From IMG/VR virus record IMGVR_UViG_3300037258_000641, positions 1 through 33,281 of that record: 33,281 bases of DNA; one strand, 5' to 3'. The DNA comes from a virus. Made by a program: the position numbers and the translations under genes. Positions 2,978 through 27,482 of this stretch are shown here, piece by piece (position 1 is the stretch's first letter; each line of letters begins with the position of its first letter). The notes beneath the pieces are model-generated. The model searched no databases, was not told the origin of the DNA, and was given only the letters and a program-made list of their open reading frames with translations.

Positions 2978-3568
2978 TTGCCTGCCCCCTTCTACACCCC
3001 GTCCGAACTCGCCTACCTCAAAGCCGATGCCGAGGACCGGCGTGCGGCCCTCAAGGCCGCCACCGAACTCGTGGCTGGCACGGAGCGGCGGCAGTGGCCC
3101 CCCTGGGGTGGCTCCCGCGAAGACCTGGACGGCTGGCTGGCTGTGGCGCACCGCGCCTACGCCTGGCTGAGGGAGCGGGTCTCTCTGCAAGCCGTCGAAC
3201 TAATCCTCATCCCCGGCCAGCCAAGCACAGAAGGGAAACCCAGAATGACGACCAGCCTGAATTTGCAGGATGACCAGGAGGTGGCTTTCAGCCTCGGTGG
3301 TGTTGACGACAAGGGCGTCCAGGTCGATGCCCCCGCTGACACCTGGACCTGGAGCTCAGATGACGCCACAGGTGCCATCGTCACGCTCACGGTCTCAGAT
3401 GACACCACCTCCGCTGAGGTTGCCGCGGTCGCACCAGGCACCGCCACCATCACCGTGGTCGGCGGCAACACCGGCCTCCAGGGTGCTGAGGCCATCATCG
3501 TGACCGCTGGGCCAGCGGTCACGATTGACCTGGTGCCAGGTGAGCCTGAGCAGGAGCCGACCGCCTGA
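2978..3568 (+). CDS. two-part protein: helical domain plus Ig-like (BIG2-type) domain (196 aa)
   Basis: The TTG start at 2978 follows GGAGG with nine bases between, so I keep the long form. Residues 1-75 look helical (SELAYLKADAEDRRAALKA, then WLAVAHRAYAWLRERV). From about residue 90 an Ig-like domain follows (LQDDQEVAFSLGGVDDKG, TWTWSSDDATGAIVTLTV, VAAVAPGTATITVVGG), typical of BIG2-like folds on phage surfaces. An internal ATG at 3245, with AAGGGAAACCCAGA before it, could start the Ig part alone, so the gene may be a fusion or may make two products. It ends in a TGATG overlap with the next gene. Confidence 0.72.
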   Translation: MPAPFYTPSELAYLKADAEDRRAALKAATELVAGTERRQWPPWGGSREDLDGWLAVAHRAYAWLRERVSLQAVELILIPGQPSTEGKPRMTTSLNLQDDQEVAFSLGGVDDKGVQVDAPADTWTWSSDDATGAIVTLTVSDDTTSAEVAAVAPGTATITVVGGNTGLQGAEAIIVTAGPAVTIDLVPGEPEQEPTA

Positions 3569-3819
3569 TGGAGGATGCACCCGCGGCAGGCCCAGAGGAT
3601 GAGCTCAGCCCGGAGGAGATCACAGAGGCGTGGGAGGTCTACCGCCAGCGCCGCTGTGATCACTGCGGAGGAGTTCATGCCCGGGCCTGCCCACGGGTGC
3701 GCCGGCTGGAGTTCCACACCAACGGCGTCCTGGCCGCTGTCTCCTTCTGGCCACCTGGCAGGTGGCCAGAAGATGGCATCCAGTGGCCTGAGGACATGCC
3801 CGCTGAATCGGGAGCCTAG
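3568..3819 (+). CDS. conserved small actinophage-type protein with CDHCGG motif (83 aa)
   Basis: After an acidic N-terminus the protein has RRCDHCGGVHARACPRVRRLEFH, then VLAAVSFWPPGRWPEDGIQWPEDM. C-x2-C, H and C form a probable single zinc site, followed by two strands. I recall this HARACPRV...WPxGxW...WPED arrangement as a recurring small protein of actinophages without known function. The ATG overlaps the previous TGA by one base (TGATG), so the two genes are likely translated together. Confidence 0.82.
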   Translation: MEDAPAAGPEDELSPEEITEAWEVYRQRRCDHCGGVHARACPRVRRLEFHTNGVLAAVSFWPPGRWPEDGIQWPEDMPAESGA

Positions 3820-5752: not shown

Positions 5753-6160
5753 TCAGGCGGGGTCGTCGGGGTAGTTGTCCGGGTTGTCAGCCACCAGGGC
5801 CATGGCCTCAAGCTGGGAGAGCTTGAGCTTGGGCGTGTAGCCAGGGGTGGAGCTCGGCATGATGCCGTACTCCCTCAGGGTGGCCAGGGCGGCGATGCGG
5901 CGGCCATCAAGCTCAGCCTGCGGCAGGGTCCTGAACCACTGGTGACCATAGTTGTCATTGATCCGCTGGCCCTCGATGCGGAAACTGGCCACCATGCTCT
6001 GCCTGGAGCCGTAGTGGATCGTGACCAGCTTGCGGCCGACCTGGGCGATGACTCCCTCAAAGGGCGGCTCACCCTTGCGCCTGTTGATATCGAACACGAG
6101 CACTGGCTCGCCCAGGGTCAGGGTGGCCGCGGTGATCTGCTCACCCTTCAGGTTGTTCAT
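5753..6160 (-). CDS. conserved hypothetical protein, beta-rich N-terminal domain (135 aa)
   Basis: The first half alternates strands (TLTLGEPVLVFDINRRKGE, FEGVIAQVGRKLVTIHYGS, MVASFRIEGQRIN), like a small SH3-type barrel. It is followed by HQWFRTLPQAELDGRRIAAL and a C-terminal helical region. Function unknown. ATG 6160 follows ACCCGAGGAGCACAC. A longer frame starting at 6226 would translate promoter P2 itself and is rejected. It is the first gene after P2, with an expected leader of about 30 bases. Confidence 0.82.
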   Translation of the reverse strand: MNNLKGEQITAATLTLGEPVLVFDINRRKGEPPFEGVIAQVGRKLVTIHYGSRQSMVASFRIEGQRINDNYGHQWFRTLPQAELDGRRIAALATLREYGIMPSSTPGYTPKLKLSQLEAMALVADNPDNYPDDPA

Positions 6161-6196
6161 GTGTGCTCCTCGGGTGTGGGTCTGGTACTCCTGGCC

Positions 6197-6226
6197 ATCG
6201 TAATGCCATAACGGGTATGGCGTCAA
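6197..6226 (-). promoter_or_regulatory. leftward promoter P2 with palindromic operator candidate
   Basis: Minus strand: -35 TTGACG (6221-6226), 18-bp spacer, -10 TACGAT (6197-6202). The spacer holds CCATACCCGTTATGG, a perfect CCATA-N5-TATGG dyad. It lies between the gene it should drive (start 6160) and the hairpin that closes the preceding leftward gene, so it begins a new transcription unit inside the cluster. See P1, P3 and P4. Confidence 0.75.
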
Positions 6227-13105: not shown

Positions 13106-13747
13106 ATGACCTACCGGCGTGATTTTCTGGTGAGGCAGCCCCCAGCACGGAATGCAAAGTGTGTCGAAATAGGTCAGCTACGGGCAGCCAATGCATGGGA
13201 GTACAGCCTTCGGGAACGGCATGCTGGAGTTACCCAGCGTGGTTACAAAGCCAGCGAGTGCATGCATATCGAGGGCACCCTCTCGGAGGGTGCGGGTGCC
13301 ACAGGCTTTGACCGATTCGATGAGTGGGTCGAGAAGTGGGCATTCCGTCCAGGACCTAACCCGTCCAAGATTGGCGGGGACATCGGCTGTACCGGCATCA
13401 GGTCAACCCCTTACCCAGATGGGGTGCTGTTCGGGCATGAGGTGAAGCAGGACCCGGACAACAAGCCATTCCAACTGGTCATACCTATAGTCACGGATGT
13501 TCGGCAATACAAGGGAGATCCAGCCCGACACATGGCGGAGTATTACAGGCTGCCTGGGTGGCTCATTGGCAAGGACCTCAGAGATATTGGCCGCTACCAG
13601 GACTGGGGCAATGATAAATGCTGGGGCGCATACCAGAGGGAAACGAATCCTTTCGCCAAGGTGCCCTTTGACTACATCTGCGCCACATGTGCCTACTACT
13701 GGGAATGCGCGGTGCAGGGCTTGAATCCAGCGGTGATCAGGCCATGA
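13106..13747 (+). CDS. conserved phage protein, possible PD-(D/E)XK-like fold (213 aa)
   Basis: The order of motifs is EGAGATGFDRFDEW, GGDIGCTGIRSTPYPDGVLF, KPFQLVIPIVTDVRQY, LPGWLIGKDLRDIGRYQDWG, DYICATCAYYWEC. I recall phage hypotheticals with EGA-x-GE, D-x-G-x-(E/Q)VRST, (P)FxLV and GWxxGxD in this order, sometimes thought to have a restriction-endonuclease-like fold; a catalytic residue set is not clear here, so nuclease activity is a guess. Three Cys near the C-terminus may bind metal. Codons ending in A/T are more frequent than in the neighbours. It overlaps the next gene as ATGA. Confidence 0.82.
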   Translation: MTYRRDFLVRQPPARNAKCVEIGQLRAANAWEYSLRERHAGVTQRGYKASECMHIEGTLSEGAGATGFDRFDEWVEKWAFRPGPNPSKIGGDIGCTGIRSTPYPDGVLFGHEVKQDPDNKPFQLVIPIVTDVRQYKGDPARHMAEYYRLPGWLIGKDLRDIGRYQDWGNDKCWGAYQRETNPFAKVPFDYICATCAYYWECAVQGLNPAVIRP

Positions 13748-13992
13748 GTGACCTCAAGCCCGGCATGGTGGTGGAGCTCGGCTGGTTCCCGCCCCCAGGG
13801 GACCTCTACCGGCCCAATGCCTACGCCCATGAGGTGGGCCGGAAGACCTCCCTGCGCTGGTATGGGGATGACGGGGAGAACTACAAGGAGTGGCCGGCCC
13901 AGGTGGAGGCCATCACGGTCCTGCCTGGTGGTGAGCAGGTGGTTGCTAGGCTGCGGGTGCTCGCGGAGGAGCAGCCTCCGACTGTCCAATGA
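13744..13992 (+). CDS. small hypothetical protein, SH3-like (82 aa)
   Basis: The product opens SDLKPGMVVELGWFPPPGDLYRP, continues KTSLRWYGDDGENYKEW and ends VEAITVLPGGEQVVARLRVLAE. It is short strands with a conserved PGMxVEL opening, like a small SH3-type barrel. Function unknown. ATG 13744 overlaps the preceding stop as ATGA; an upstream in-frame start at 13687 lies inside that gene. The last codons overlap the first hairpin of the 13964-14304 array, so the array begins inside the gene. Confidence 0.75.
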   Translation: MSDLKPGMVVELGWFPPPGDLYRPNAYAHEVGRKTSLRWYGDDGENYKEWPAQVEAITVLPGGEQVVARLRVLAEEQPPTVQ

Positions 13993-14304
13993 TCAATCCT
14001 GAGTGCTCGCGGAGGAGCTCAGCCCTCCGACCTCGCGGCTTCATCGGAAACAGGACCTGCGGTGGGGTGGCCACCGACTAAGGACGGTTTCGCGTGGGCC
14101 CGCAGCGGGGTGACCGCTGACCTGACTTCACGCCCTCAGCGGGGCTTGCCCGCTGACTAGCTGCCGCAGAGGGCATTCCTCTGACTGCCGCTCATTGTGC
14201 CAAGCACCCGCGGAGGGGTGGCCTCCGGACAACTTTCGGCGTGCCCGGAGGCTGGCCTCCGACACCTACCGGGATATTGAGCACCCGCAGAGAGGTGTTC
14301 TCTG
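13964..14304 (+). repeat. hairpin array 1: nine short covarying stem-loops
   Basis: Nine 6-bp stems with 4-8 base loops, spaced 30-50 bases: 13964-13980, 14010-14029, 14060-14076, 14103-14119, 14137-14155, 14167-14183, 14211-14227, 14246-14261, 14288-14304. 5' arms are CGGAGG, CGGTGG, CAGCGG, CAGAGG or CAGAGA, and every 3' arm is the exact complement. The 5' flank is usually CCG or CTCG and the 3' flank usually AC or ACT; five loops are GGTGN. Stem positions 2, 4 and 6 vary and always compensate. No gene is seen between 13993 and 14335 and no T-run follows any stem. Role unknown. Confidence 0.72.
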
Positions 14305-16049: not shown

Positions 16050-16088
16050 CCGGGACGCCCTGGCGTGAGCCTGCCAGCCCGGTTTTTT
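16050..16088 (+). terminator. intrinsic terminator with T-run upstream of the protease gene
   Basis: CCGGG (16050-16054) pairs with CCCGG (16078-16082), and inside it CTGGC pairs with GCCAG; TTTTTT follows at 16083-16088. It is the only hairpin in the window with a classic T-run. It would stop rightward transcripts from the cargo region before the protease/capsid genes, implying that those genes have their own promoter or need antitermination. Confidence 0.65.
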
Positions 16089-16133
16089 CTCCCGCGCGTC
16101 CTCGCGCATCTACCCAACCTGCCCAGGAGGCAT

Positions 16134-19100
16134 GTGGCAACAGCCGTCGATGAGCTCACTTATGTCTCATTCCCTATTACCAAATGGGACAAGAATGATG
16201 ACGGCGATCTGGTGGTGTACGGAAAGGCCACCGATGGCAGTGTCGATTCTGACGAACAAATCGTGAGCCCGGAGTGGAGTGGGCCCGCGCTCAAGACCTG
16301 GATCGAGACTGGTGGCAATGTCCGCGTGCAGCACCAGGCACTCCGCGACCCTGCTGGTAAGGGCATCTCTGTCGAAATCGACAAGGACGGCGATGGCGGG
16401 CACTGGGTTAAGAGCCTGGTAGTCGAGCCAGTCGCTAAAAGGCTCGTGGAGAAGGGTGTCCTGACCGCCTATTCGGTCGGAATCGCCCGCCCGGTCATTA
16501 ACCGTGACCCCTCAGGGAAGGCCCGTGGCGGAATTGTCGCGGGCGGGCACCTGGCTGAGCTCTCCCTGGTGGACCGGCCTGCCAACAAGGCCTGTGGGTT
16601 CATCCTCGGCAAGAGCGATTCAGAGGGGCACCTGGAATTGACCGGCGAGCTCGAAGCCGAGCCAGAGTTCCTGGCCAAGGCCATCGCTGGGGAGGAGCTC
16701 CTCCTCAAGCAGGGCTCCGGGGATGACGGCTCAGGTGACGCCGGGGCCGCAGCATCCAACTCCGACGATGGCACCGATGGTGCTGATGGCGATGGCGGTT
16801 CTGACGCGGCCAGCACCGATGACGTGGATGAAGACGATGCCGTGAGCAAGGGCCTGCCTGATGAGGTGACCATCGCGGCCTACAAGGCTGAGCGGAAGTC
16901 CTGGACGGCCACAGAGCCCTCCGTGAAGGGCATCGCCATGACCGGGACTGAGTACCTGGCCAAGCGGGCTGAGTGGTCCAGGTGGCACCACTACGGCGAG
17001 GAGAACGGGTTCAACGGCACGAAGGAAGGTGCTGAGCGCTGGCTGGCCAAGCGGGACTTCAATGCCCGTGAGCGCCAGTCCGCTGCCTCCTCTGGCGCGG
17101 CAATGCCAGATGGGTCATTCCCCATCAAGAATGGCGATGATCTGGGAAATGCCATTCACCTGGCCGGTCACGCCAAGGACCCAGGTGCTGCCCGTGCGCA
17201 CATTAAGCGCCGTGCCGCTGCCCTGGGCATGAGTGGCCGCATTCCTGACTCCTGGAAGGGCACCGAGGAGGTCACATTCACCCCGCTGACTGGGGCTGAC
17301 TGGACCAAGGTCCTGGAGGCCCTGATTGACCAGGAAGTGGCCAAGGCCCTCCTTGGTGAGGACCGGGTGGAGGAACTCGGCAAGGCCGCCAACAATGACG
17401 GCACGGTGGGTGACAATTCCTCCAGCTTCTCTGGTGGCTCCAAGCCATGCCCAACGTGCAAGGGTGATGGCAAGATTCGCGGCGACAACATGAAGTGCCC
17501 GGACTGCAATGGCAGCGGCAAGGCTCCAGCCGGCAAGGCTGAGGATGCGGCCAGTGCCGATGAAGTCGGAGATGAGTCCTCCGCGACCGCCAAAGCCGAT
17601 GTCGGGTCGTCGGAGGATGACCCCTCCGCGGGCACAGAGGTCGAGCAAGCCGAGGTGGGCAAGGGTAGCAAGGACTGCGGTGGGTGCGGGAAGTCCTATG
17701 ACTCCGACACCGGCTACAAGTTCTGCGCGAACTGCGGCAAGAAGCTGCCTGGTGCCAAGAAGTCAGCCAAGGCCGCCAAGCGGGCTGCCCGTGAGGCCGC
17801 CATTGCTGACCTGGCCGCCACCGTGCTCAAGTCAGTGGAAGCTGGCCTGATCACGGCTGAGGCTGGTGATGAGGTCATTGCTGAGGCCGTGGCCGCAGCC
17901 GACCTGGGCAAGAAGCGCCAGCTTCCGGCCGATGTTCACCAGGCTGCCAGCCACCGGGAGCCAGATGGCACCTCCACTGTGGAGCGCCTGGAGCCACAGG
18001 CTGGCATCGCCACCGACCCGGACCCGGTTGCGGACAAGGTGCCCGCGTCAGTGGCCGCCAAGGGCCAGGAGCCGTCCTATGCCGTCCAGCGCATGCATGA
18101 CCTGATGTGCGCGGCCTATGACCCGGCTGAGACCCTGGCCAGCTACCCGGCCCTCAAGGGCATGGCTGATGCGGTTGACCCTGGCCCATTCCTGGACCAG
18201 GCCGTGGCGGCCATGGCCGATGGGGACACCCGTAAGGCTGCCGAATACGGCTCCCTGGTGGATGCTGCCCGCGCCGTCAAGGCTGCCGACCCTGAGGCTC
18301 TGGCTGATGCCGCTGCGATGCTCCACAAGAGCTTCAGCGACATGTATCCCAGCCTCAAGATCTCACCGTCCTCGGGCATCAGGCCAGGGTCCTACCAGAG
18401 GCCTTACCTGTCCTCTGGCCATTCGGCTGAGAGCGCGAGCTCCAACGGGTCGGCCAACATCCCGCCAAGCTCACACACTCCAGAGCCTGAGAACTTCCAG
18501 CGGCCACTGATCACCGCTGGTCATGAGGCAGACAGCCCAGCCAACCGGAAGGCCGATGGTGGCCCTCCAGGTGAGGGCCCCATGTCCACGACCGCGGACT
18601 TCAGGACCACCACTGGGAGTGCCAGGACCTACTACAGCAATGCCCAGCGGGATGCGGCCAAGGCGGCTCTCCAGGCGCTGCATGACCACATCGCTGGCTC
18701 CTTCCCTGACTTGTGCCCAATGGCATCGAGCAAGTCCGTGATGCCAGCAGACATGGGCGCGACCAACACCCCCCGGCCAGATGCCCCAGCCAGCCAGGGC
18801 GGTATCCCAGCAGTCAAGGCCGATGAGGTGGTGGAGCTCACCGTGCCGAAGGTCTCCGATGGGCCTGAGATCCAGCAGGCCATCGCGGATGCCATCCGCC
18901 GCCACCTGTCCCGGGGCAATGGGCTCCCGGAAGGGGTTACCGCAGAACAGCGGCCGATGACCCGCAAGCGGCTGGAGAAGGCCGCACAGCGGTTTGGCCT
19001 GGACCTGGTTGAGCGCCGCTCTGCCCCGGCAGAGACCGGCGTGCTGACCCCAGTGGTGGGACCAGCAGGGATCTCCATGGAGGAGATGAAGTCCCTGCTG

Positions 19101-19436
19101 TCCGACCAGATCACCCCGCTCATCGAGCGGCATGAGACCCAGATGGAAGACCTGCGCAAGCAGGTCGATGAGATCGGCCGTCAGCCTGACCCAGCAATGG
19201 CCCCCGTCCGGGGCGCACTGGCCAGGGCCCCCATGGACACCCCGCCCGTTCCCGTGGAGCGGCGGAGCCTGATCGATGAGGCAGCCGAGAAGACCGAGAA
19301 GTCCGCCGCCAGCCAGGAGGCCCACTACCGGGCCTACGTGGAGGCCCTGACCCGTAGCCCTGACCCAGCCGTCAGGGAGGCCGCAATGGCCACCATGGAC
19401 AAGCTCTCAGCCCAGGCTCACGCAGCCGCAGGCTGA
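16134..19436 (+). CDS. prohead protease-scaffold fusion with internal zinc ribbons (1100 aa)
   Basis: GTG 16134 is chosen for AGGAGG eight bases upstream. Residues ~1-160 are an HK97-type (S78-like) prohead protease: VRVQHQALRDP with H67, LTAYSVGIARPV with S114, AELSLVDRPANKAC near 142-156. Then come an acidic Asp/Ser/Gly-rich linker (~200-245), a domain GSFPIKNGDDLGNAIHLAG...HIKRRAAALG (~325-368), a DnaJ-like CPTCKGDGK...CPDCNGSGK ribbon (~439-462), a second ribbon CGGCGKSYD...CANCGKKL (~514-537), and long Ala/Pro-rich and coiled-coil parts (EEMKSLLSDQI, ~980-1020). The protease should cut scaffold and capsid; the remainder fits an internal scaffold. Far longer than usual proteases (~200). 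Confidence 0.9.
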   Translation: MATAVDELTYVSFPITKWDKNDDGDLVVYGKATDGSVDSDEQIVSPEWSGPALKTWIETGGNVRVQHQALRDPAGKGISVEIDKDGDGGHWVKSLVVEPVAKRLVEKGVLTAYSVGIARPVINRDPSGKARGGIVAGGHLAELSLVDRPANKACGFILGKSDSEGHLELTGELEAEPEFLAKAIAGEELLLKQGSGDDGSGDAGAAASNSDDGTDGADGDGGSDAASTDDVDEDDAVSKGLPDEVTIAAYKAERKSWTATEPSVKGIAMTGTEYLAKRAEWSRWHHYGEENGFNGTKEGAERWLAKRDFNARERQSAASSGAAMPDGSFPIKNGDDLGNAIHLAGHAKDPGAARAHIKRRAAALGMSGRIPDSWKGTEEVTFTPLTGADWTKVLEALIDQEVAKALLGEDRVEELGKAANNDGTVGDNSSSFSGGSKPCPTCKGDGKIRGDNMKCPDCNGSGKAPAGKAEDAASADEVGDESSATAKADVGSSEDDPSAGTEVEQAEVGKGSKDCGGCGKSYDSDTGYKFCANCGKKLPGAKKSAKAAKRAAREAAIADLAATVLKSVEAGLITAEAGDEVIAEAVAAADLGKKRQLPADVHQAASHREPDGTSTVERLEPQAGIATDPDPVADKVPASVAAKGQEPSYAVQRMHDLMCAAYDPAETLASYPALKGMADAVDPGPFLDQAVAAMADGDTRKAAEYGSLVDAARAVKAADPEALADAAAMLHKSFSDMYPSLKISPSSGIRPGSYQRPYLSSGHSAESASSNGSANIPPSSHTPEPENFQRPLITAGHEADSPANRKADGGPPGEGPMSTTADFRTTTGSARTYYSNAQRDAAKAALQALHDHIAGSFPDLCPMASSKSVMPADMGATNTPRPDAPASQGGIPAVKADEVVELTVPKVSDGPEIQQAIADAIRRHLSRGNGLPEGVTAEQRPMTRKRLEKAAQRFGLDLVERRSAPAETGVLTPVVGPAGISMEEMKSLLSDQITPLIERHETQMEDLRKQVDEIGRQPDPAMAPVRGALARAPMDTPPVPVERRSLIDEAAEKTEKSAASQEAHYRAYVEALTRSPDPAVREAAMATMDKLSAQAHAAAG

Positions 19437-21353: not shown

Positions 21354-21410
21354 CCCGTGCACTACAGGAATGGCACCAGGTCACATGCCTGGTGCCATTC
21401 CTGGCACGGG
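21354..21410 (+). terminator. large two-part hairpin after the major capsid gene
   Basis: AGGAATGGCACCAGG (21366-21380) pairs perfectly with CCTGGTGCCATTCCT (21388-21402), with a 7-base loop. An outer stem CCCGTGC (21354-21360) pairs with GCACGGG (21404-21410). It begins 11 bases after the capsid stop. No T-run follows. It may end or slow transcription after the highly expressed capsid gene, or protect its mRNA end. Confidence 0.72.
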
Positions 21411-22875: not shown

Positions 22876-23168
22876 TGACTCGCGTACGCCTGCCCGATGG
22901 CTGCACCGGGCTGGACATGGCCAACGGGAAGAAGTACACCGCCGAGAAGCCAGGCGGCACGGTGGAGATGTCCGGCAAGGACGCCCACTACATCGACACG
23001 TCATTCTACGGCCAGAAGCAGGCCGGGATCATGCGTGGTGGCCCTCAGTTCACCATCGGGACCAAGGCCGGGCGCTGGTGCCTGCCGTGCAAGCGGCTGT
23101 GGCAGGGCTGGTCTGTGGTGTGCCCGCGGTGCGGGACTGAGACGGCACCTGACAGGCCCGGGGACTGA
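22875..23168 (+). CDS. conserved zinc-ribbon protein (97 aa)
   Basis: The N-terminal part (RVRLPDGCTGLDMANGKKYTA, MSGKDAHYI) looks like a small beta unit. The C-terminal part has GRWCLPCKRLWQGWSVVCPRCG, a four-Cys zinc ribbon. I recall this GTKxGRWCxxCxRLWQxWxxxCPRCG ending from actinophage head-gene regions; no function is established. The ATG overlaps the previous stop by one base, so it belongs to the capsid accessory run. Confidence 0.85.
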   Translation: MTRVRLPDGCTGLDMANGKKYTAEKPGGTVEMSGKDAHYIDTSFYGQKQAGIMRGGPQFTIGTKAGRWCLPCKRLWQGWSVVCPRCGTETAPDRPGD

Positions 23169-23334
23169 AACCGGGCGGGCCGAACGGTGGGTACTTGCGG
23201 ATGGGTTAGAACGGCCCCGCAAGCTCGGGCCACCCGGGACCTTGGGCAAGCCCCGGCTGGCATTGGTGCGGACACAATGCGGCACCAGGCGGAGCCGGGG
23301 CAAGCAACGGACAATCTAGCACAACAGGAGGCAT
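23169..23334. other. intergenic region with hairpin at 23194-23223
   Basis: This 166-base gap has no gene that I can support. CTTGCGG (23194-23200) pairs perfectly with CCGCAAG (23217-23223). Further right are CCCGGG and GCAAGCCCCGG. The end carries the shared start cassette (AGGAGGCATGTGGCA) of the gene at 23335. The hairpin may be a terminator after the capsid accessory run; no T-run is present. Confidence 0.4.
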
Positions 23335-23841
23335 GTGGCAGCGGGCAAAGCTATCGCTTACGCCATGTCGGATATGGCCCCATCGGATGATGGGAAGATC
23401 AAAGCAGGCACGGTCAAGGTGCCTGAGGACCGTGGCGGGTGCGGCAAGTCTCACACGGTGGAGCTCGATGAAAAAGACCGCCCCAGGATCGTGTGTGAGG
23501 CCTGTGCCCCCATCCTGGTTGGCGGCCACTTTGGCTGGTCGGCCAGCCCGTCCGGCGTCCCGCTGACCCCTGATGAGCAGGGTGAGGTGGAGATCGCTGA
23601 GCGGGAGGGCCAGGTGGCCATGCGGATGGCCATGAAGGCCATGGGTGCCGCGGTGGCATCACAGGTGCAGGGCACCTCAGACGCGCCGAAACTCTCAGCT
23701 TCAACCCTGGTGGCCCAGTTGTCCTCCATGAGCACGGCTGAGCGGGCCGAGATTGCCGCTCTGCTCAAGGAGGATGACAAGCCTGTGGTCAAGCCTGAGC
23801 ACAAGGCTCCAGCCCGCCCAGTGGCCAGGAAGGCCAGCTAG
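23335..23841 (+). CDS. hypothetical protein with Cys motif and helical tail (168 aa)
   Basis: GTG 23335 has AGGAGG eight bases upstream. The N-terminal half has GGCGKSHTVELDEKDRPRIVCEAC, with C-x-n-C-x2-C suggesting a zinc site, and LVGGHFGWSASPSGVPLTPDE. The second half is helical (EIAEREGQVAMRMAMKAMGA, STLVAQLSSMSTAERAEIAA) and ends in a basic, Pro-rich tail. It is not recognised, but the CxxC...HFGW...LTPDE pattern is of a kind seen between capsid and connector genes of actinophages. It starts a two-gene unit. Confidence 0.8.
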   Translation: MAAGKAIAYAMSDMAPSDDGKIKAGTVKVPEDRGGCGKSHTVELDEKDRPRIVCEACAPILVGGHFGWSASPSGVPLTPDEQGEVEIAEREGQVAMRMAMKAMGAAVASQVQGTSDAPKLSASTLVAQLSSMSTAERAEIAALLKEDDKPVVKPEHKAPARPVARKAS

Positions 23842-24043: not shown

Positions 24044-24228
24044 CAGAGAGTGGCTCTCTGCGGGTCCATGAAGGTAAATGGGATTCGTCAGGGACCGGCT
24101 CCCTGCGGGCGCTGGGCACCCAAGCATGATTCGTCAGAGGCTTTACCCGTCTGACCATCGTCAGAGGCCATGGGCCCCTCTGCGGGCACTGGGGTCAAAT
24201 CTCAGCCATGTCGGAGATGCCTTCTCCG
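24044..24228 (-). repeat. hairpin array 2: five stem-loops, inverted relative to array 1
   Basis: Stems at 24044-24060 (CAGAGA/TCTCTG), 24089-24105 (CAGGGA/TCCCTG), 24133-24155 (GTCAGA/TCTGAC, divergent copy), 24162-24182 (CAGAGG/CCTCTG) and 24212-24228 (CGGAGA/TCTCCG). On the plus strand four are flanked by GT on the left and CG[GA]G on the right, the reverse complement of the array 1 flanks (CCCG left, AC right). Stem bases differ but pairing is kept. The 246-base gap 24029-24274 has no supportable gene. Function unknown. Confidence 0.68.
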
Positions 24229-26217: not shown

Positions 26218-26730
26218 GTGCCCATAAATTCGGTCTCGACCTATCTGGTTGACCTCCTCAACGGCCTGCCACTGCCTGGCCCAGCGGGCGCTGAAGGCAA
26301 CCTGGCCGCCTTTATCACCCCGCCAGACCCAGGCACCCTGACGGTCCCCACGGCCTACCTGTGGCCAATCAGCGGCGAGGAGAAGCGGCTCACCTCGCCC
26401 CGGGCCGGCGGGCCGAACGTGATCAGGCCCGGCTGGAAACACATCATCCACAAGGTGCCGCTGTTCCTGGCCTGGGTGGGCTTGGCCTCAGATCCCACTG
26501 CGGACACCAACTTTGCTGCCGTCATCGACGCCATCATGGCTGTGCTCAGGCCCAGCCCGGATGAGGTGGAGATCACTGACCCGGTAACGGGGCAGATCAC
26601 TTCCCTGATTCTGGGCATCGGGGAGGAACTCAGCTACGAATACTCCGTGGTCCACTCGCTGGCTGACCAGCGCCTGCTGCGCTATGACTGCCGCCTGACC
26701 ATCACTGCTGAGGAGTATTTCCAGAGTTAG
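26218..26730 (+). CDS. tail terminator / tail completion candidate (170 aa)
   Basis: GTG 26218, three bases after the previous stop. The protein has an N-terminal helix (STYLVDLLNGLPLP), central strands (VPTAYLWPISGEEKRLTS, HKVPLFLAWVGLAS) and a helix/strand end (FAAVIDAIMAVLRPSP, QRLLRYDCRLTITAEEYFQS). The order connector, this gene, tail tube is that of tail terminators (for example lambda gpU or SPP1 gp17 class), and the size fits. The call rests on context. Its 3' end overlaps the Nudix gene on the other strand by 29 bases. Confidence 0.78.
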   Translation: MPINSVSTYLVDLLNGLPLPGPAGAEGNLAAFITPPDPGTLTVPTAYLWPISGEEKRLTSPRAGGPNVIRPGWKHIIHKVPLFLAWVGLASDPTADTNFAAVIDAIMAVLRPSPDEVEITDPVTGQITSLILGIGEELSYEYSVVHSLADQRLLRYDCRLTITAEEYFQS

Positions 26731-27127
26731 CGGTGTACCAGCGGTGCCTGGTGGTCAGGTACCGCCTGGCTGGCTCATACATCCCTGGCATGACCCGGAT
26801 GGCCTCTGGGATGTCCACCCAGCGGACCTCCAGGAGCCCGCTGCCGGGCCGGGCCCTGGCCTCAGTGCCCCTGGTGGGCCAGGCGCTCACATATGCCACC
26901 CGCACGTCTGTCAGCGGGTGGGTCCGGTGGCCCAGGATGCCGCCTGCGGTCACCAGCAGGCCAGTCTCCTCTGCCACCTCCCGCACCGCCGTCCGCTCAG
27001 GCTCCTCATCACCCTCCGCCGAGCCACCGATGAACCCCCAGACCGGAGTGCCGTCCTGGCGGCGGCCTATGAGGGTGCTCCCCCCGCAAGTGATCACCGT
27101 CAGGGCCACCAGCCGGAAACGGTGCAC
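26702..27127 (-). CDS. Nudix hydrolase (141 aa)
   Basis: The complete Nudix box is present: G-x5-E-x7-REV-x-EE-x-GL as GSAEGDE...EPERTAVREVAEETGLL. It is preceded by a strand (VALTVITCGGSTLIGRR) and GTPVWGFIGG, and followed by RTHPLTDVRVAYVSAW and LEVRWVDIPEA. Such enzymes hydrolyse nucleoside diphosphates linked to another group; the substrate cannot be told. GTG 27127 is my choice; an in-frame start at 27181 would cover the next gene's start region. It is a lone leftward gene inside the tail genes, with no P-type promoter visible. Confidence 0.85.
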   Translation of the reverse strand: MHRFRLVALTVITCGGSTLIGRRQDGTPVWGFIGGSAEGDEEPERTAVREVAEETGLLVTAGGILGHRTHPLTDVRVAYVSAWPTRGTEARARPGSGLLEVRWVDIPEAIRVMPGMYEPARRYLTTRHRWYTANSGNTPQQ

Positions 27128-27167
27128 TGCCCGATTATGCCCCGCTAACCACCTCGCCTGGAGGCAT

Positions 27168-27482
27168 GTGGCTGAAGCCACCCCCTTGTACGTCTACCTG
27201 GGCACTGAGCCCAGGGTCTACACGCAGTACCTCGATGTCACCCCAGACGACGACGGCGAGGTCTCACCCAGGCCCCTTGAGGTTGAGCCTGGCCACGAGT
27301 ACGCGATGGAGCCCTGCCCAGGGTGGGACACCGATGGCCCGGGGGCCCTGGCTGTGCCACCTGCTGATGGCCAGTGGACCGGGGTGACCCCGCGCGGCGG
27401 GGTGCTGGACCTCACCAGGGCAACCAATGGCAATGGCGGACCTAAGGCCGCCCCAGCTAAGAAGAAGGGGGCGACAGAATGA
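27168..27482 (+). CDS. hypothetical protein before tail tube (104 aa)
   Basis: GTG 27168 uses the GGAGGCATGTGGC cassette. The protein has LYVYLGTEPRVYTQYLDVTP and DGEVSPRPLEVEPGHEYAME, then GVTPRGGVLDLTRA and a basic, disordered tail (GGPKAAPAKKKG). The short beta unit followed by a Lys-rich end, placed just before the tail tube gene, is seen in several actinophages, but I cannot name the family. It overlaps the tail tube ATG by four bases (ATGA). Confidence 0.78.
   Translation: MAEATPLYVYLGTEPRVYTQYLDVTPDDDGEVSPRPLEVEPGHEYAMEPCPGWDTDGPGALAVPPADGQWTGVTPRGGVLDLTRATNGNGGPKAAPAKKKGATE

Follow-up and report, generated by a model that had tools for sequence, protein, structure and literature searches.

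An uncultured phage carries a family of hairpins that is real, conserved, structured, and, as far as we searched, previously undescribed. The DNA analyzed is the whole 33,281-nt IMG/VR virus record IMGVR_UViG_3300037258_000641, referred to here as the window. We prefer to read these hairpins, with somewhat less than even confidence, as lineage-specific, short, oriented REP-like palindromic DNA elements that fold, and are bound by a putative partner protein, as hairpins.

Array A and its genomic setting

The genes in the window include those for a portal protein (PF04860), a tape measure protein, MuF-like and polynucleotide-kinase-like proteins, and a head-protease-like protein of 1123 aa. A further gene is assigned as capsid-like because its product weakly matches a protein annotated as a major head protein. 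Other features were observed in passing. A minus-strand NUDIX gene (26702-27181) is found inside the plus-strand late gene block, and the gene at 5753-6226, also on the minus strand and adjoining a DUF4192 gene, encodes a domain like the C terminus of phage ProQ (PF24203, E 4e-9). Two perfect 13-bp palindromes, both with the loop GGC, are located about 250 nt apart at 3497-3525 and 3744-3772. A perfect 16-bp stem with a 7-nt loop (21365-21403) stands directly past the stop of the capsid gene.

Array A occupies the space between an 82-aa open reading frame (ORF; 13744-13992) and the kinase-like gene. The first-pass annotation of this DNA had reported nine perfect short stems in a gene-free gap, with stem positions 2, 4, and 6 variable. 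The nine stems are indeed present, each of 6 Watson-Crick base pairs with a loop of 4 to 8 nt, and the three positions vary as claimed. The gap is almost gene free, the one exception being the 3' end of the 82-aa ORF, which runs into the first hairpin. The units are listed below, the first coordinate of each being its stem start.

13964..14304, plus strand: array A, units a1 to a9 head to tail, start spacings of 46, 50, 43, 34, 30, 44, 35, and 42 nt
13964..13980, plus strand: a1, CGGAGG-agcag-CCTCCG, overlapping the 3' end of ORF 13744-13992
14010..14029, plus strand: a2, CGGAGG-agctcagc-CCTCCG
14060..14076, plus strand: a3, CGGTGG-ggtgg-CCACCG
14103..14119, plus strand: a4, CAGCGG-ggtga-CCGCTG
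14137..14155, plus strand: a5, CAGCGG-ggcttgc-CCGCTG
14167..14183, plus strand: a6, CAGAGG-gcatt-CCTCTG
14211..14227, plus strand: a7, CGGAGG-ggtgg-CCTCCG
14246..14261, plus strand: a8, CGGAGG-ctgg-CCTCCG
14288..14304, plus strand: a9, CAGAGA-ggtgt-TCTCTG

Shuffled sequence did not yield arrays of this quality. Dinucleotide shuffles of the 351-nt stretch (n = 2,000) averaged 0.74 stems and never had more than 5, compared with the nine observed, and stems of the CRGNGR type, of which array A has nine, averaged 0.011. Shuffles of the whole window all stayed at or below 7 stems per 350 nt. The flank and loop sequences that had been said to recur do so in part: AC follows the stem in seven of nine units, but a GGTGN loop and a preceding CCG are each found in only four. 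The units score 18 to 36 bits with covariance model R1, save for a8, which scores 9.9 bits because its 5' flank is shortened.

A coding repeat was rejected since the unit spacings are not divisible by three, and an intrinsic terminator was rejected since no T-run follows the stem, a lack that had been noted before and that we confirm. Array A does resemble a degenerate repeat array of the CRISPR-like or type III antitoxin-like kind, in that its hairpins are short, repeated, and oriented alike, with spacers that vary, and a type I-E array encountered in our searches (L209) yields weak R1 matches. However, the I-E repeat scores at background, the phage units are not near-identical, their spacing is irregular (30 to 50 nt), and they have no Rfam match. 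We consider such an array highly improbable, in agreement with the earlier statement that these are not CRISPR repeats.

Two further clusters and the shape of the unit

The remaining copies are clustered, not scattered. They make up array B and pair C, both of which are oriented opposite to array A.

24044..24228, minus strand: array B, five units (four perfect and one bulged), with an orthologous array in the related phage L218 at 1564-1731
24044-24060, minus strand: b1
24089-24105, minus strand: b2
24135-24153, minus strand: b3, with a one-base bulge and an atypical flank
24162-24182, minus strand: b4
24212-24228, minus strand: b5
17567..17583, minus strand: c2, CGGAGG-actca-TCTCCG, with an inner G-U, inside ORF 16065-19436
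17611..17628, minus strand: c1, CGGAGG-ggtcat-CCTCCG, inside ORF 16065-19436

Unit c2 was absent from the R1 training set and was recovered by that model at an E value of 0.0007. Pair C sits within the head-protease ORF (16065-19436), in a low-complexity linker that is shortened in the relatives L005 and L002 and unaligned in L009.

The aligned copies give the unit consensus AGYRCCCG-CRGNGR-N4..9-YCNCYG-AC, which on the other strand, head first, is (N)GTC-RGNGR-loop(4-9)-YCNCYG-CGGGYRCT. The unit consists of a conserved GTC head, a 6-bp stem in which the C of GTC is included, and a conserved CGGG tail, and it has a direction because the conserved flanks are nonpalindromic. These oriented flanks are common to A, B, and C, though A is on the plus strand, B and C are on the minus strand, and the genes are on the plus strand. 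The units are found in gaps between late genes, where they form head-to-tail arrays, and in the one low-complexity linker.

Pairing is under constraint

Compensated changes in the stems had been taken to imply selection for structure, and a statistical test of covariation supports a constraint on pairing. In the alignment, 14 cells changed on both sides compared with 4.1 in shuffles, and none of 500 shuffles was as high; with the L218 units added, the count was 17 compared with 5.5, again with 0 of 500 as high. Sliding the partner arms destroyed the signal. Watson-Crick pairs fill 100 of the 102 aligned pair cells and G-U just one, a scarcity that partly reflects the initial finding of units by perfect pairing. 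Stem position 4 can be A, C, G, or T, yet the partner base matches. The shuffles ignore kinship among the units, so the comparison with L218 described below is the stronger argument.

Perfect pairing had been the criterion by which the units were first identified, so the covariation test was redone with a pairing-blind definition that relied solely on invariant letters and flanks and left the pairing of positions 2, 4, and 6 unused. This found 10 array units, 9 of them with pairs at each of the three free positions and the tenth with one G-U. In the control, only 3 of 179 chance units in relatives were fully paired.

Palindromes in late-gene gaps might instead be a duplex-DNA operator array occupied by a dimeric phage regulator, with a role like that of mycobacteriophage stoperators or SAS/ESAS, and phage-wide site families are known (PMC3203893, PMC9283540). 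The matched partner at position 4 counts against this, since a two-fold operator has no need for pairing at a position that is itself nonspecified. Moreover, the spacer varies from 4 to 9 nt, and the sites are clustered and not start-associated. We regard an operator array as unlikely.

Array B is conserved in a related phage

The closest relative found, L218, was reached via the g24275 protein, whose gene adjoins array B. It shows 83% identity in the gene next to the array and 71 to 76% DNA identity (∼73% nt). L218 keeps array B at the orthologous gap, with five units in the same order (model E values of 6e-7 and 2.5e-5) and start spacings of 43, 43, 20, and 45 nt versus 45, 46, 27, and 50 nt in the window. 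Both arms have changed at five stem positions between the two phages, namely position 2 in b1/e1, positions 2, 4, and 6 in b2/e2, and position 2 in b4/e4. One stem pair of e4 has turned to G-U, on the gene-sense strand, and the b5/e5 stem is unchanged. Two of the five L218 units are broken, e1 by a deletion that cost inner pairs and e3 by loss of the second arm, so that constraint on individual units is not absolute. The GTC-side arm is intact in all 10 B units of the window and L218, including the broken or bulged b3, e1, and e3. As to whether relatives break the stems at the rate expected by chance, a question raised by the first-pass annotation, the five compensated positions say mostly no, but the two broken units weigh on the other side. 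Pairing constraint is thus supported by covariation, by the pairing-blind test, and by the L218 orthologs.

Perfect palindromes could also be maintained without selection, by template switching during replication that copies one arm onto the other. Such switching is reported to create and maintain hairpins (PMC8794818), and it predicts Watson-Crick over G-U pairs, as observed. It leaves unexplained why the GTC head and CGGG tail are conserved, why L218 shares the five-unit layout, and why the head-side arm persists in units whose other arm is broken. We think it quite improbable; mutational homogenization of the arms could nevertheless contribute part of the stem symmetry.

Array B has been in place since the split from L218, and mobility is therefore not visible. 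On the whole contigs of syntenic relatives (46 to 84% capsid identity), there was no array and no significant model match. The covariance model search that had been proposed for related genomes recovered array B in L218, but more distant relatives are without the array. Gap B is at most ∼20 nt in L005 and ∼50 nt in L009, which indicates that array B is an addition. Among the genomes searched, this phage and L218 are the only known carriers of the element.

Two observations on the relatives are separate from the hairpins. A stretch of ∼178 nt, largely noncoding and between two small genes (window 23161-23338, L218 702-877), is 89% identical in the two phages, and the coding DNA beside it is only 71 to 76% identical. 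It has no match in the other relatives examined and no Rfam family; it is a candidate for a structured RNA that is conserved or for a regulatory element. The capsid genes of L017, L018, L019, L020, L023, and L027 are broken by intron-like inserts of ∼260 to 1600 nt that recur near residues 158, 247, and 260 to 266.

Wider searches and host

Relatives were sought with neighboring proteins as anchors (PNK-like, g13106, capsid, g24275, and portal); no relative of the g13106 protein was found. Scans of related loci for hairpin clusters and for oriented elements gave no further array, and matches such as those in L042 and L054 were rejected as chance tandem repeats. Exact pattern scans found no true arrays in 42 viral stretches or among the genome stretches listed, and they returned one single-element match, inside a gene-dense stretch. 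The covariance model was also run on 17 related contigs, on 13 mixed genomes, and on ∼640 actinobacterial genomes (396 across the phylum and 250 from one order, with slight overlap), and it gave isolated matches only. No multicopy family of the unit was seen in the ∼640 actinobacterial genomes, where stricter filters and few candidates per genome, as applied whenever more than 40 genomes were searched, mean that dispersed degenerate copies could be missed. The best actinobacterial matches are isolated, score 29 to 35 bits, and are without strong neighbors. The exception, L209, is unrelated, being a chance match to a long type I-E-like CRISPR array on a Frankiales MAG contig.

The DUF4192 protein suggests that the host is an actinobacterium. 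Searches for the host gave single weak DUF4192 and tail-protein matches; the capsid has no match in the 396 actinobacterial genomes, and no closely related cultured phage was found.

Function at the DNA or RNA level

As a REP-like element, the unit would act as DNA, forming a hairpin or cruciform once the strand is exposed in replication or recombination. The hairpin would be bound by a putative protein that reads the GTC head and the shape of the stem, by analogy with TnpA_REP/RAYT-type proteins, which read a tag and hairpin. The arrays probably arose through copying of units and may now be kept in place by selection for the hairpin. Binding might serve a replication or recombination site or a transcription block, or the units may record past mobility alone. 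Neither the window nor 24 related contigs, all of them fragments, yielded a Y1/RAYT transposase (PF01797) in a search whose control was positive in 6 of 14 genomes; host factors are possible.

Covariation is also the classic signature of RNA. Hairpins in late mRNA (A) and antisense RNA (B and C), or hairpins recognized by the stem alone, might recruit or sequester an RNA-binding protein or determine how stable the RNA is. Folding energies of the perfect hairpins in isolation are about -6 to -13 kcal/mol, the G-U in the L218 unit falls on the gene-sense strand, the minus-strand NUDIX gene is upstream of B on that strand, and the window encodes the ProQ-C-like protein. However, A and B/C face opposite ways relative to the genes, G-U pairs are almost absent, and the sole G-U in the window (c2) lies on the noncoding strand. 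Fold z-scores of the whole regions relative to shuffled sequence are modest on the plus strand, at -2.2 (A) and -0.2 (B), and are -3.6 (A) and -1.7 (B) on the minus strand. We hold an RNA-level array to be possible but doubtful.

The opposite orientations, the units within a coding gene, and the near absence of G-U make a single transcript-level structure less likely, and we found no evidence for the processed RNA, or for the packaging signal, that had been proposed earlier. In GTAG REPs, G-T pairs are frequent and were read as a sign of RNA function (PMC3733652). The position of units inside the protease ORF counts for the REP-like reading, because intragenic copies are reported for REPs and Rickettsia RPEs (PMC3733652). 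We lean toward a DNA-level element over one mRNA structure, and no single fact is decisive.

Palindromes of the REP type have been described in bacterial chromosomes, and how those of the CGTC type arise and persist is unexplained. The literature searched yielded no account of REP-like arrays in phages, which is not proof of absence, and phages go unmentioned in the main REP catalog paper (PMC3733652). Orthologous, countable units in two phage genomes offer a small test system for three accounts of such palindromes, as selfish elements, as sites under selection, or as by-products of mutation, and for the question of whether phages help to disseminate them. A bolder proposal, to which we give a minor share of our confidence, is that the units represent a phage-borne class of tagged hairpin DNA, in head-to-tail arrays with selected pairing, that may be a structural recognition site, used in replication, recombination, or gene control by a protein of the phage or host that is dedicated to it.

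Comparison with known element families

The earlier view was that no named element fits. With Rfam 15, no family scored above the gathering threshold for the hairpins. Stoperators and SAS/ESAS are likewise multiple, short, largely intergenic phage sites, and ESAS are inverted repeats with a variable spacer. They differ in being fixed sequences or 17-bp imperfect repeats beside start codons, without covarying 6-bp stems or arrays of nine. SAS/ESAS are defined by the 13-bp GGGATAGGAGCCC next to start codons and by 17-bp imperfect inverted repeats (PMC3203893), and neither was seen in the phage unit sequences.

The GTAG-tagged REPs of the TnpA_REP/RAYT system share the plan of a tag plus a hairpin, and there the hairpin DNA is read by a Y1 protein; the phage unit, in contrast, has no GTAG tag and is flanked by CCCG and GTC. 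The CGTC-tagged REPs, which include Neisseria dRS3 and Rickettsia RPE-4/6 (Di Nocera et al. 2013, PMC3733652), come closer. They too have a short palindrome with a GTC-containing head and a distinct tail, loops of 4 to 5 nt in most units, and subfamilies with alternative complementary stem residues, as found here, and they occur as intragenic copies, and as clusters in some hosts, without a dedicated transposase. GTC is general in the head of the phage unit, and the stem is preceded by CGTC or TGTC in 6 of the 16 units in the window and in 4 of the 5 in L218. However, the CGTC-tagged REP stem is 8 to 9 bp and starts with A-T pairs, whereas the phage stem is 6 bp and starts with C-G, then R-Y, in all aligned units. 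The terminal CGTC (or TGTC/CCTC) of these REPs is unpaired, whereas the final C of the phage GTC pairs with G, and their tail is an unpaired CCA, whereas that of the phage unit is mostly CGGG or CGAG. REPs are also mostly head to head, and the phage units are head to tail, few in number, and in a phage. The earlier view therefore stands as to membership, with no Rfam family and with defining features of both tagged REP superfamilies lacking, but it passes over how close the tagged REP palindromes come in architecture (PMC3733652). The phage unit belongs to no catalogued family and is REP-like in its architecture.
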